Positions 6,258 to 60,757 of a stretch of DNA of 64,000 nucleotides are shown here, piece by piece. Both the position numbers and the translations under genes were made by a program. Below the pieces are notes generated by a model. It saw nothing but the letters and a program-made list of their open reading frames with translations, ran no database searches and was not told the origin of the DNA. The stretch's first letter is position 1; each line of letters starts with the position of its first letter. Source of the DNA: Zafaria cholistanensis (GTDB taxonomy: Bacteria > Actinomycetota > Actinomycetes > Actinomycetales > Micrococcaceae); NCBI RefSeq assembly GCF_008580665.1, contig NZ_BKDJ01000001.1:1-64000 (forward strand), in the 5' to 3' direction.

Positions 6258-6263
6258 AGCCTA
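6258..6263 (-). promoter_or_regulatory. -10 box of menF at the repeat edge
   Basis: TAGGCT on the minus strand, 10 bases before the menF ATG, predicting a leader of only a few bases. Its TAG is the first triplet (CTA on plus) of the adjoining repeat unit, the same arrangement as at murB and at the GNAT-like gene. Confidence 0.5.
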
Positions 6264-6371
6264 CTCGCCGAGGGTCCCGCCTCGAGCGCCAGCGAGAGGT
6301 GGGAGGCGGGGAGGCGCTACTCGCCGGGGGTCCCGCCTCGAGCGCCAGCGAGAGGTGGGAGGCGGGGAGGC
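6261..6371. repeat. Two tandem 56-bp units of the dispersed repeat family (array A)
   Basis: Units start at 6261 and 6317 with one difference between them; the second breaks off after 6371. Read outward from menF each unit runs CTA-N2-CGCCGAGGG-N-CCCGC and ends GGGAGGCGGGGAGGCG. CCCGCCTC near the front pairs with GAGGCGGG near the end, so each unit can fold into a hairpin. The same family occurs at 44861-45035 and 59619-59731. The array lies between the divergent menF and menG starts. Confidence 0.85.
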
Positions 6372-6427
6372 TGTGCGCGGCGGCCCGGATTTTCGCCCGC
6401 GCGGGGAGCATGGGGGAGAATGGCCGG

Positions 6428-37640: not shown

Positions 37641-37712
37641 GCCCCCCTAGCTCAGTGGTAGAGCGCAGTCTTGGTAAGACTGAGGTCACGGGATCGATTC
37701 CCGTGGGGGGCT
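37641..37712 (+). tRNA. tRNA-Thr (GGT), copy 1
   Basis: 72 bases; acceptor GCCCCCC/GGGGGGC, anticodon loop TTGGTAA with anticodon GGT, T-loop ATCGATT. CCA is not encoded. Identical to copy 2 at 37976-38047. Confidence 0.95.
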
Positions 37713-37771
37713 CTGAATGGCGGAGCCCGCGTCTGTGTCCAGGAGACGCAGGCGCGGGCCTTCCCATTCGT

Positions 37772-37845
37772 GGCGGTGTAGCTCAGCTGGTTAGAGCGCA
37801 CGACTCATAATCGTGAGGTCCCGGGATCGAGTCCCGGCACCGCTA
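37772..37845 (+). tRNA. tRNA-Met (CAT, elongator), copy 1
   Basis: 74 bases; acceptor GGCGGTG/CACCGCT with a terminal G-U pair, anticodon loop CTCATAA with CAT, discriminator A then CC. The paired-up first position and resemblance to actinobacterial elongator tRNA-Met argue against the initiator. Identical to copy 2. Confidence 0.9.
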
Positions 37846-37851
37846 CCGACG

Positions 37852-37882
37852 GATCCCCGGCTCCCCCCAGGAAGCGGGGATC
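37852..37882 (+). terminator. Terminator after the first tRNA module
   Basis: GATCCCC pairs with GGGGATC across a 17-base interval, followed by TTTT. Confidence 0.7.
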
Positions 37883-37975
37883 TTTTCGTTTCCGGCGGGT
37901 GGCGCGCCGGTACCGGTTTGGCAGGCGGTCCCGTTTCGCTTTCGGGGCCGGGCGCTGGTAGAGTATTTCCTCGTT

Positions 37976-38047
37976 GCCCCCCTAGCTCAGTGGTAGAGCG
38001 CAGTCTTGGTAAGACTGAGGTCACGGGATCGATTCCCGTGGGGGGCT
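37976..38047 (+). tRNA. tRNA-Thr (GGT), copy 2
   Basis: Identical in sequence to copy 1, displaced by exactly 335 bases. Anticodon GGT. Confidence 0.95.
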
Positions 38048-38106
38048 CTGAATGGTGGAGCCCGCGCCTGTGTCCAGGAGACGCGGCCGCGGGCCTTCCC
38101 ATTCGT

Positions 38107-38180
38107 GGCGGTGTAGCTCAGCTGGTTAGAGCGCACGACTCATAATCGTGAGGTCCCGGGATCGAGTCCCGGCACCGCTA
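38107..38180 (+). tRNA. tRNA-Met (CAT, elongator), copy 2
   Basis: Identical in sequence to copy 1, displaced by exactly 335 bases. Anticodon CAT. The spacer from tRNA-Thr is also kept, with few changes. Confidence 0.9.
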
Positions 38181-42479: not shown

Positions 42480-44860
<2,381 letters not shown>

Positions 44861-44870
<10 letters not shown>

Positions 44871-45035
44871 CGCCTCACCGCCTCCCGCACCTCGCTGCGC
44901 TCGGCGCGGGTCCCTCGGCGGTTAGCGCCTCACCGCCTCCCGCACCTCGCTGCGCTCGGCGCGGGTCCCTCGGCGGTTAGCGCCTCACCGCCTCCCGCAC
45001 CTCGCTGCGCTCGGCGCGGGTCCCTCGGCGGTTAG
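44861..45035. repeat. Three identical tandem 55-bp units plus a partial unit (array B)
   Basis: Units at 44861-44915, 44916-44970 and 44971-45025 are identical; CGGCGGTTAG of a fourth follows. The first unit contains the uvrA-like stop TAG (44868-44870); the partial unit supplies the TAG of the murB -10 box (45033-45035), exactly 165 bases (three units) further. Within a unit CCGCC pairs with GGCGG and CCCGC with GCGGG. Same family as the arrays at 6261 and 59619. Confidence 0.92.
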
Positions 45036-45038
45036 GCT
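45033..45038 (+). promoter_or_regulatory. -10 box of murB formed at the repeat edge (leaderless)
   Basis: TAGGCT, 7 bases before the GTG at 45046; its first three bases are the last of the repeat array. Confidence 0.55.
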
Positions 45039-45045
45039 TATGCCC

Positions 45046-46113
45046 GTGAGTTTGCAGCTGCTTTCGTCCTTGACCACCACCGCTGTCGGCGGCCCCGCGG
45101 GCCGGTACCTCGAAGCCGGCACGGAGGCGGAGATCGTTGCCGCCGTGCGCGCCGCCGACGCCGCGGGGGAGGACCTGCTGATCCTGGCCGGAGGATCCAA
45201 CCTGGTCGTGGCCGACGCCGGGTATCCGGGCACGGTGCTGCGCATCGCCAGCACCGGCCTCCAGGAACACGCCGGCGACGGGCACGTGCTGCTCACCGTC
45301 CAGGCCGGGCACCCGTGGGACCAGGTCGTCGCCCATGCTGTCGAACGCGGGCTCTCCGGCCTCGAAGCCCTGTCCGGCATCCCCGGATCCACCGGCGCCA
45401 CCCCCGTACAGAACGTCGGAGCCTACGGCGCGGACGTCTCCCAAACCCTGGAGGGCGTGCGCGCGTGGGACCGGGTGGCGGGGGCCGTGAGGACCTTCAC
45501 CAATGCCGACCTGGGCTTCGGCTACCGGGACTCACTCCTCAAGCGGACCACCACCAACGGGTCCCCGCGCTACGTGGTCCTCACCGTGACGTTCCGGCTG
45601 GAGGCGGGCGGGCTCAGCGCGCCGGTCGCCTACGCCGAACTGGCCCGGGCCCTCGGCCTCGCCCCCGGCGAGCGGGCCGCCGCCGCCGATGTGCGCCGCG
45701 AGGTCCTCCGGCTCCGTGCCGGCAAGGGCATGGTGTTGGACCCGGCCGACCGGGACACCTTCAGCACCGGCTCGTTCTTCACCAACCCGGTGGTGCCCGC
45801 CGCGGTGGCCGCCTCCCTGCCTGACGACGCCCCGAACTACCCGGCCGGGGAGGGCCTGGTCAAGCTTTCCGCCGCCTGGCTGATCGACCGCTCCGGCTTC
45901 GGCAAGGGCTACGGGCTTCCCGGAAGCGCGGGGGAGCACCTGGCCGGGGGCCGTGCGTCGCTGTCCACCAAGCACACGCTGGCCATCACCAACCGGGGCG
46001 GAGCGACCGCCGCGGACATCCTTGCCGTCGCCCGGGCCGTGCGCTCGGGCGTCGCCGAACGCTTCGGAATCGAACTGCACAACGAGCCGCTGCTCATCGG
46101 CTGCGCCCTCTGA
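45046..46113 (+). CDS. murB: UDP-N-acetylenolpyruvoylglucosamine reductase MurB
   Basis: FAD- and NADPH-dependent reductase (355 aa) completing UDP-MurNAc synthesis for peptidoglycan. FAD-binding ILAGGSNLVVADAG and SGIPGSTGATPVQNVGAYG; the catalytic Ser in FSTGSFFTNPVV; the C-terminal Glu in ELHNEPLLIG. GTG 45046 is preferred because a -10 box ends exactly 7 bases before it; the ATG at 45040 is in frame two codons earlier. Array B lies directly upstream and could affect its expression. Confidence 0.94.
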   Translation: MSLQLLSSLTTTAVGGPAGRYLEAGTEAEIVAAVRAADAAGEDLLILAGGSNLVVADAGYPGTVLRIASTGLQEHAGDGHVLLTVQAGHPWDQVVAHAVERGLSGLEALSGIPGSTGATPVQNVGAYGADVSQTLEGVRAWDRVAGAVRTFTNADLGFGYRDSLLKRTTTNGSPRYVVLTVTFRLEAGGLSAPVAYAELARALGLAPGERAAAADVRREVLRLRAGKGMVLDPADRDTFSTGSFFTNPVVPAAVAASLPDDAPNYPAGEGLVKLSAAWLIDRSGFGKGYGLPGSAGEHLAGGRASLSTKHTLAITNRGGATAADILAVARAVRSGVAERFGIELHNEPLLIGCAL

Positions 46114-58866: not shown

Positions 58867-59607
58867 TCAGAAGCGGCGGTCTCCGATGCTGGCAGCGGTC
58901 AGCGAACCGGCCAGCACGAACCCCAGCGTTTGCGCGGTCAGGTGCCCCGCCCGGTTGCTGACTCCGGCACGCCACTGGGGGATGAGGCCCTGCGTGAGCG
59001 CATCGTCGATCGCCACCGCGGTGATGTAGGAGGCCAGTCCGTGCCTGCGCAGCGCGGGCACGGTGAGTGCCGAAAGGTCAGCCACCATTCCCTCCCAGAT
59101 GTCGTATCCGGCGCCGGCCAGCGGCTTATGCCCCTCCTCGGCGAGCAGGGTGAAGGGGTGCTCGCGCGAGGAGAGCCGCACCTCCGCCACGTCGTCGCGC
59201 GGGCACGCCGCTTCCAGTTCGCGCGCGTGGGCGAGGTCGAAGGAGACCACCGTGGATTCGGACTCGGCCACATCCAGCGGCTCGTCCAGGTAGTACAGTG
59301 CGGTTTCGCCCAGGCCACGCGCATGGCTGCCCCCGCCGTGCTCGCGCACCAGCCGCACCAGCGTCGACTCCAGGCCCAGTTCGTCGTCGTCGTACCGTTC
59401 GGCCGCGTCCAGCGCCCATCCCGGCCCGTGCAGCGCGGAGCCGCGCAGCAGGCGCAGGAACCGCACGCTGTCCGCGGTGTCGTCCCGGGCCAGGACACGC
59501 GGGGCCGTTTCGCCCATGGCTGCATAGTGCAGTTCCGCGTCGGGCAGGCCGAACCGCCGTGCCCAGGCGAGCGCGATGATGGCGCGGGTTCCCGTCTCCA
59601 AGTCCAT
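58867..59607 (-). CDS. GNAT-like protein of unknown substrate
   Basis: Protein of 246 aa. The C-terminal third follows a GNAT pattern (VPALRRHGLASYITAVAIDD, then WRAGVSNRAGHLTAQTLGFV), with the Gly-rich acetyl-CoA loop weakened (RRHGLA), so activity is uncertain. The N-terminal part (LETGTRAIIALAWARRFG, DDTADSVRFLRLL) is typical of small actinobacterial GNAT-like proteins. The start is 8 bases after TAGTCT formed at the edge of repeat array C. Convergent with ygfZ. Confidence 0.65.
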   Translation of the reverse strand: MDLETGTRAIIALAWARRFGLPDAELHYAAMGETAPRVLARDDTADSVRFLRLLRGSALHGPGWALDAAERYDDDELGLESTLVRLVREHGGGSHARGLGETALYYLDEPLDVAESESTVVSFDLAHARELEAACPRDDVAEVRLSSREHPFTLLAEEGHKPLAGAGYDIWEGMVADLSALTVPALRRHGLASYITAVAIDDALTQGLIPQWRAGVSNRAGHLTAQTLGFVLAGSLTAASIGDRRF

Positions 59608-59615
59608 AAGATCTA

Positions 59616-59621
59616 AGACTA
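59616..59621 (-). promoter_or_regulatory. -10 box of the GNAT-like gene at the repeat edge
   Basis: TAGTCT on the minus strand, 8 bases before the ATG at 59607; its TAG is the CTA that opens repeat array C. Confidence 0.45.
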
Positions 59622-59731
59622 GCGGCCGAGGGCCCCGCCCCGAACGAAGTGAGGGGTGGGAGGTGGCTAGTCGCTAGCGGCCGAGGGCCCCGCCCCGAAC
59701 GAAGTGAGGGGTGGGAGGTGGCCAGCCGCTA
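59619..59731. repeat. Two tandem 55-bp units (array C)
   Basis: Units start at 59619 and 59674, with few differences; the CTA that would start a third is the pfkA stop codon at 59729-59731 (minus strand). The stop and the -10 TAG of the GNAT-like gene are thus exactly 110 bases (two units) apart. Core blocks are CCGAGGG-CCCCGCCCC, GAGGGGTGGGAGG and CTAG. Same family and same orientation to the downstream gene as arrays A and B. Confidence 0.88.
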
Positions 59732-60757
59732 GCCGAAGAGGACGGCGGCCTCGTCATAGCGGTGCTGCGGCACGCGCTTGAGGTTGTCCAGCGCGTCCAC
59801 GAACGGAACGCGGCAGATGTCGGTGCCCCGCAGGGCCACCATGGTTCCCCATGCCTTGTCGGTGGCCGAATCCACCGCTGCCATCCCCAGCCGGGTGGCC
59901 AGCACGCGGTCGTACGCGGTGGGCACCCCGCCGCGCTGGATATACCCGAGCACGGTTGCACGGGTTTCAAGGCCGGTGGCCTCCTCGATCAGCGGGGCCA
60001 GCCGCTCGCCCACGCCACCGAGCCGGGGCCGGCCGGAGGCGTCGCGGCCGCGGTCCGCATAGGGTTCGAACGAACCCTCCGGGACGAACCCCTCGGCGAC
60101 CACGACCAGCGGGGCGCGGCCGCGTTCGTGCGCCTCGCGGACCCACTGGGTGATCTGCTCCATGCTCAGGGGGTGTTCCGGAATGAGGATGGCATGGGCG
60201 CCTGCCGCCATGCCCGCGTGCAGCGCGATCCAGCCGACGTGGCGGCCCATGACCTCGGCCACCATGCAGCGGTGGTGGGACTCTCCGGTGGTGCGCAGCC
60301 GGTCGATCGCCTCCGTGGCGATCTGGACAGCGGTGTCGAAACCGAAGGTGTAGTCGGTGGCGTCCAGGTCGTTGTCGATGGTCTTGGGGACCCCGACGAT
60401 CGGCAGCCCCGCGTCGGTCAGCTCCTTGGCCCCGGCGAGGGTGCCTTCGCCGCCGATCGCGATCACGGCGTCGACCCCCAGCCGGTCCAGCGTGGCCTGG
60501 ATGTTTTCCGGACCCCCCTGCTCGCCGTCGTAGGGGTTGGTTCGGGACGTGCCCAGGATGGTGCCGCCCTGCTTGGAGATGCCGCGCACCGTGGCGCGCG
60601 GCAGGTCGATGTAATCGCCTTCGACCACTCCGCGCCATCCATCGAGGAACCCCACGAATTCATGCCCGTACCGCTTGATGCCGTTGAGCACCGCTCCGCG
60701 GATCACCGCGTTCAGGCCGGGGCAGTCCCCGCCGCTGGTCATGATTCCAATACGCAT
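59729..60757 (-). CDS. pfkA: 6-phosphofructokinase
   Basis: Glycolytic enzyme (342 aa) phosphorylating fructose 6-phosphate. It has the PFK A-type motifs MTSGGDCPGLNAVIRG, AIGGEGTLAGA, GVPKTIDNDLDATDYTFGFDTA and EVMGRHVGWIALHAG. Gly in GGEGT favours ATP use, while the Lys in PKTIDND is shared with PPi enzymes; the mixed type is common in actinobacteria. The ATG is preceded by weak ribosome sequence. Its stop codon is the end of repeat array C. Confidence 0.94.
   Translation of the reverse strand: MRIGIMTSGGDCPGLNAVIRGAVLNGIKRYGHEFVGFLDGWRGVVEGDYIDLPRATVRGISKQGGTILGTSRTNPYDGEQGGPENIQATLDRLGVDAVIAIGGEGTLAGAKELTDAGLPIVGVPKTIDNDLDATDYTFGFDTAVQIATEAIDRLRTTGESHHRCMVAEVMGRHVGWIALHAGMAAGAHAILIPEHPLSMEQITQWVREAHERGRAPLVVVAEGFVPEGSFEPYADRGRDASGRPRLGGVGERLAPLIEEATGLETRATVLGYIQRGGVPTAYDRVLATRLGMAAVDSATDKAWGTMVALRGTDICRVPFVDALDNLKRVPQHRYDEAAVLFG

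Follow-up and report, generated by a model that had tools for sequence, protein, structure and literature searches.

Between pfkA and the downstream GNAT-like acetyltransferase gene lie two tandem copies of a palindrome of about 55 bp (array C), which we read, at a probability of about one in two, as a non-autonomous REP-like element that recognizes its target by base pairing. The sequence examined, here called the window, is the 64,000-nucleotide stretch G000:C1:1-64000 of a high-GC genome of 3.29 Mb in 49 contigs (features in Table 1). The trinucleotide CTA, which is TAG on the minus strand, recurs at 59619-59621, 59674-59676 and 59729-59731, with spacings of 55 and 110 bp. The preliminary description had placed the pfkA stop codon and the TAG of the GNAT-like -10 box 110 bp apart, as two 55-bp units, and its coordinates are exact. 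TRF reports the segment 59619-59733 with a period of 55, 2.1 copies and 96% matches, and the two units are identical at 53/55 positions (2/55 differ). The promoter-proximal unit reads CGACTAGCC...CCGCTAG, its final TAG being the start of the -10 box, and the pfkA-proximal unit reads CGGCTGGCC...CCGCTAG. The pfkA product matches PF00365 (E=1.9e-103), its frame ending at 59729. The match of the GNAT-like protein to PF12746 is marginal, at 27.2 bits where the cut-off is 26, and a search of named genomes with this protein gave no match. The hexamer TAGTCT (59621-59616) stands 8 nt upstream of the GNAT-like ATG at 59607; its TAG is the repeat end and its TCT lies outside the repeat. Since TAGNNT is conserved 6-7 nt upstream of the start in most relatives in which pfkA adjoins the GNAT-like gene, the comparison supports TAGTCT as the probable real promoter of this gene.

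Table 1. Coordinates of the repeat arrays and the neighboring features in the window
Feature	Position	Strand	Basis
Array A, 2 units of 56 bp, same family as array C	6261..6375	-	TRF; covariance model
Array B, 3 units of 55 bp, same family as array C	44868..45035	+	TRF; covariance model
GNAT-like acetyltransferase gene, downstream of array C	58867..59607	-	ORF; PF12746; adjoins pfkA in relatives
-10 hexamer TAGTCT of GNAT-like gene (predicted)	59616..59621	-	TAGNNT conserved in most relatives; genome-wide pattern
Array C, promoter-proximal repeat unit, 55 bp	59619..59673	-	TRF; covariance-model match, 71.1 bits
Array C, pfkA-proximal repeat unit, 55 bp	59674..59728	-	TRF; covariance-model match, 67.8 bits
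TAG, pfkA stop codon and left junction of array C	59729..59731	-	ORF list; PF00365; 366 open codons
pfkA, ATP-dependent 6-phosphofructokinase family	59729..60757	-	PF00365

A single family of palindromic repeats comprises arrays A, B and C. Its conserved core (CTCCC...CTCG-loop-CTCG...GGGNCCCTCG) is set within a two-part hairpin whose covarying stems are specific to each locus. The units of arrays B and C had been taken as different; they have 42/55 positions in common and are members of the same covarying hairpin family. Among 15 units of the own genome, 91% of the paired cells are standard pairs, and changes on both sides of a pair number 36, against 12.3 in shuffles. With 36 units from several genomes the both-side changes rise to 100, against 25.8 expected from shuffles; none of 500 shuffles was as high, and slid controls were far lower. 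A covariance model found 54 matches in the own genome at E <= 0.012; the units number about 50 and are grouped into roughly 30 arrays, each holding 1-4 of them. Units inside one array are nearly identical, and a near-identical unit occurs at two loci, C8:149708 and C9:34361. By single-strand DNA folding energy the units are no more stable than their shuffles. A search of the 64-kb window with Rfam 15 gave only tRNAs above the gathering score, the repeat matching no known structured RNA. The tRNAs of region 37641-38180 form a duplicated pair (37641-37712/37772-37845 and 37976-38047/38107-38180), with identical scores and about 335 bp apart.

The same-family relatives compared include records named Arthrobacter and Paenarthrobacter. 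The covariance model matched 15 of 61 family genomes, very unevenly: within a single genus, G059 and G087 have 69 units each, two congeners have 1-2 and six (G083, G085, G086, G088, G089 and G007) have none. A. mobilis and A. hankyongi are among the carrier species. Exact-pattern matches in named genomes are nearly all from Arthrobacter, the others being one Paenarthrobacter, one record titled Sporosarcina and a few unclassified actinomycete bins. A second subfamily is seen in other Arthrobacter species (L106, L110, L115, L118, L127, L130, L133, L135, L154 and L169), where TAG or TAA is followed by TCCCCACCGGC...GCCGGCGTGGGCCCA; it seemingly begins at a stop codon, and its tandem copies have a common GTGGGCCCA joint. 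An inverted hairpin, GTCCCCGTGCGCGAAGCGTGTGGGGGAGGCAGCGAACGC, often precedes the unit in G087, and also at L196 in G059 (left flanks of L175, L177, L182, L189 and L196); at L175 hairpin and unit make a composite of about 106 bp.

The placement of the arrays is regular at one end. Read in promoter orientation, 27/29 arrays of the own genome terminate at the TA of a TANNNT, and in 19/29 an ATG or GTG follows 6-8 nt past it. Among random TA dinucleotides of the window, only 1.7% have the same TANNNT and start, and against this background the 19/29 have a binomial P of about 5e-27. In Actinobacteria, a TANNNT some 10-12 bp upstream of the start has been published as a mark of leaderless genes (PMC3160421), and the same 19/29 arrays adjoin a predicted leaderless TA-led promoter. 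The TAG of array A is the start of the -10 TAGGCT of a minus-strand gene beginning at about 6246, and the last TAG of array B is the start of the murB -10 TAGGCT. The opposite end is less constrained, most own-genome arrays beginning 10-60 nt after the stop of the upstream gene. A stop codon forms the left end of three arrays: in B, in C and in the array at C1:401460 (whose other end is degenerate), the left TAG terminates a long ORF lying upstream. A few more cases possibly exist but are ambiguous, since GC-rich DNA often contains long open frames on both strands. The earlier rule that an array leads from a stop codon to a promoter is therefore not general, as the -10 end generalizes and the stop codon at the far end is occasional; "stop-to-promoter" should give way to "TAN of a -10 box". 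Around array B (44860-45046) no UvrA-like gene was found upstream of murB in 29 relatives, and the array marks a private gene junction, murB standing behind the UvrA-like gene only in the own genome.

The proposal that TAG is the joining point fared well in the wider form TAN: such a trinucleotide, often TAG, bounds most units, and it flanks both sides at two clean empty sites (below). Tandem units with TAN at every boundary have a length that is automatically a multiple of 55. The non-trivial facts are the coincidences of array ends with a -10 box and with a stop codon. The expectation that array length is a whole multiple of the unit holds for array C and fails for several arrays with a truncated unit at the far end (C4:60273, C9:34361, the L119/L124 orthologues). 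At L002/L221 and L005/L208 the truncated extra unit is a 3' part of about 19-23 nt at the promoter-distal end. The truncation of promoter-distal units suggests decay from one side.

Within one genus, we searched ten congeners for the flanks of 16 repeat loci taken from three genomes, and compared 60 upstream regions of orthologous genes. At hisI, galE, L173, L177, L171 and L175 the -10 box is present in relatives without the repeat. Two comparisons gave clean empty sites. In the first (L175 in G087, L273 in G059), G059 reads GAACACATCGC-TAA-GCTGG and G087 reads GAACACATCGC-TAA-(units)-TAA-GCTGG; in the second (L171 in G084, L244 in G083), G083 reads CCGCCTACTAC-ACTGG and G084 reads CGCCTACTAC-(units)-TAC-ACTGG. 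From these two sites the insertion point is placed between TAN and XCT, the insert being flanked on either side by TAN (or TA). Of 74 units that end at a -10 box, 60 also have a left TA boundary, the TA being duplicated at both junctions; because the third base of the left and right TAN differs in 5 of these 60, the target duplication may be of TA only. A mobile promoter bringing its own -10 box was rejected, as at least six loci have an identical -10 in repeat-free relatives, and so was copying of the stems from the sequence upstream of the target, where the empty sites hold different bases. The preliminary description had also proposed that empty sites keep one TAG common to the pfkA stop and the -10 box. 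Among the relatives in which the two genes adjoin, such a site is found only in G026 (GGC TAG ACT CTTCTG GTG); stop and -10 are separate in the closest relative and in nearly all others.

The terminal unit starts with the tag CG-X'-N', where X denotes the fourth base of the -10 box, outside the unit. X and X' are complementary in 65/67 arrays (97%; shuffle mean 31.7, maximum 47), in 23/24 arrays of the own genome, and in 48/51 arrays of G059 and G087, a set that partly overlaps the 67. N' is complementary to N in 57/67. The two positions inside these pairs match less often (A2-Y, 57%; T1-A, 61%), and the next base outward from X-X' never pairs (T6-C1, 0/67). Since pairing is 97% at X-X', 57-61% just inside and 0/67 outside, the profile favors a putative readout of the base over general repair or stability of the stem. 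By analogy, it resembles the guide readout of IS200/IS605 and of a REP system (PMC8266576). Two orthologous loci with a different third -10 base carry a correspondingly different N', which could be due to independent insertions or to coevolution. A sister class tagged CGCGTC ends between TAG and CTG in 17/18 cases, and its tag is not complementary to its own target base by base; complementarity of tag and target is thus not universal. The TAG of this class (L323, L366, L322, L324, L335, L360, L374 and others in G059 and G087) usually closes a long open frame on the opposite strand, ...AGC TAG.

With moderate confidence we hold guide-directed insertion as the leading reading and coevolution of a promoter hairpin as its main rival. 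The guide-directed element would insert at TAN, mostly at the start of a -10 box (TANXCT). Its own end being TAN, the -10 hexamer would be intact after insertion, with only upstream DNA displaced. The 5' tag CG-X'-N' would pair with N-X-C of the target and so pick the landing site, as the guides of IS200/IS605 and REP elements do, and tandem copies may come from further copying in the same TAN-bounded frame. For array C the target would have been a single TAG, serving at once as the stop codon of pfkA and as the first three bases of the -10 box. Mobility, presumably by strand transfer, we infer from the empty sites, the patchy spread and the dispersed copies. Several observations count against the leading reading. 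Y1_Tnp (PF01797) was not found in the own genome or in any high-copy genome tested, and occurs in 1/23 genomes, G090, which carries 1 repeat; on this evidence the repeat is not part of a RAYT/REP pair. The CGCGTC tag fails to match its target base by base. The loci L206 and L208 (G000:C4:12910 and C4:60273) have an identical 36-bp core and different -10 boxes, with outer stems that are completely different between the two and self-complementary in each. Orthologous arrays keep their stems and change their cores. From these two facts the stems clearly evolve in place as well. The joint N/N' change fits coevolution after insertion equally, and the stop and -10 are separate in the closest relative.

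A functional hairpin or cruciform that abuts and partly includes the -10 box, insulating or regulating the gene, could acquire the match through selection that makes the tag follow the -10 after insertion. The covarying stems agree with this, as do the joint changes of N and N' and the orthologous copies that persist with compensatory changes (upp, serS and the L119/L122/L124 locus). Yet the pairs nearest the invariant -10 T and A are the ones often broken, the outermost X-X' pair being kept; the CGCGTC class sits at gene ends, not promoters; folds of the units are no stabler than shuffles; and congeners lack repeats at the same promoters. We consider such selection unlikely, if still a serious competitor. 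The match might also arise with neither guide nor selection, if replication errors by template switching copied one hairpin arm from the other and reached into the flank. The arms do match locus by locus, and the near identity of units in one array fits, but such correction should be contiguous, and the steep fall of pairing on both sides of X-X' makes this quite improbable. We give similarly little credence to a MITE that duplicates a TA target and is mobilized by a DDE transposase (IS630/Tc1-like), with the -10 box as the commonest TA in a GC-rich genome. TA flanks most insertions on both sides, and stops and -10 boxes would be natural targets where TA is scarce; the ends, however, are not fixed terminal inverted repeats, since they differ from copy to copy and follow the target. 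An ordinary slipped-strand tandem repeat would explain the near-identical units and copy numbers of 1 to 4, but its chance spacing to stop and -10 is refuted by the genome-wide -10 placement (P as above), the same family being so placed at about 30 own-genome loci and many more in relatives; it has almost no credibility left.

Several known repeats share features with the present one. MIRU of mycobacteria are reported at overlapping stop and start codons; like them, these are tandem intergenic units of 50-100 bp in actinobacteria with junctions coinciding with gene-end signals, and we know of no evidence that MIRU track -10 boxes. MITEs of the Correia/RUP type make a TA duplication and have a known IS630-type helper. 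They resemble the present repeat in TA at both junctions and in effects on promoters, and differ in being longer and having fixed terminal inverted repeats. The broad description of an extragenic palindromic repeat applies here: the units are repeated and intergenic, forming an imperfect palindrome conserved as structure. REPs likewise are short imperfect palindromes with a tag at one end, extragenic and grouped, at dozens to hundreds per genome, and those of the CGTC type also lack a dedicated transposase (PMC3733652). The GTAG and CGTC super-families lie mainly downstream of genes and as head-to-head dimers (PMC3733652), unlike the present 55-bp head-to-tail units, which are anchored at -10 boxes and carry a tag that varies with the target. 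There is no GTAG here, the tag being CG-X'-N', variable by locus and preceded by TAN. A CGTC REP has an unpaired CGTC tag, a stem of 8-9 bp, a loop of 4-5 nt and a CCA tail, mainly in head-to-head dimers (PMC3733652); the present tags are CGTC in some units and CGCC, CGAC or CGTG in others, paired with the target, and the structure is a long two-part stem in head-to-tail arrays. In TnpA-REP/RAYT and IS200/IS605 (IS608) systems a 5' guide next to the hairpin selects the cleavage site by complementarity, and changing the guide predictably shifts that site; for IS608 and for one REP system this logic is established (PMC8266576). The present repeat differs from these in that no Y1 transposase was found in its high-copy carriers; compared with IS200/IS605, its natural guide and target variants covary across loci. 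Arthrobacter and Micrococcaceae are absent from the main text of the REP survey (PMC3733652), our literature search for an Arthrobacter or Micrococcaceae repeat of such a type returned nothing relevant, and we could not find an earlier description of a REP-like palindromic family with promoter-edge placement and a tag/target match.

We tentatively propose, as a possibility that we rate below even odds, that these are actinobacterial mini-elements with a natural guide-to-target code, in which the tag would pair with the -10 hexamer (the sister class recognizing a stop-codon site), landing would restore the promoter, and the mover would not be a recognizable Y1 transposase. If the tag selects the target, the family would offer a naturally varied base-pairing code for DNA insertion that can be read from genome sequence, with insertion aimed at promoters without destroying them. 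Retargeting by a change of guide would be testable from many natural guide/target pairs, and the family would point to a mobilizing enzyme to seek. Even if the match coevolved, the association of one palindrome with the -10 boxes of dozens of genes, in Arthrobacter and its relatives, is a feature of regulation or of genome evolution for which we found no earlier description.
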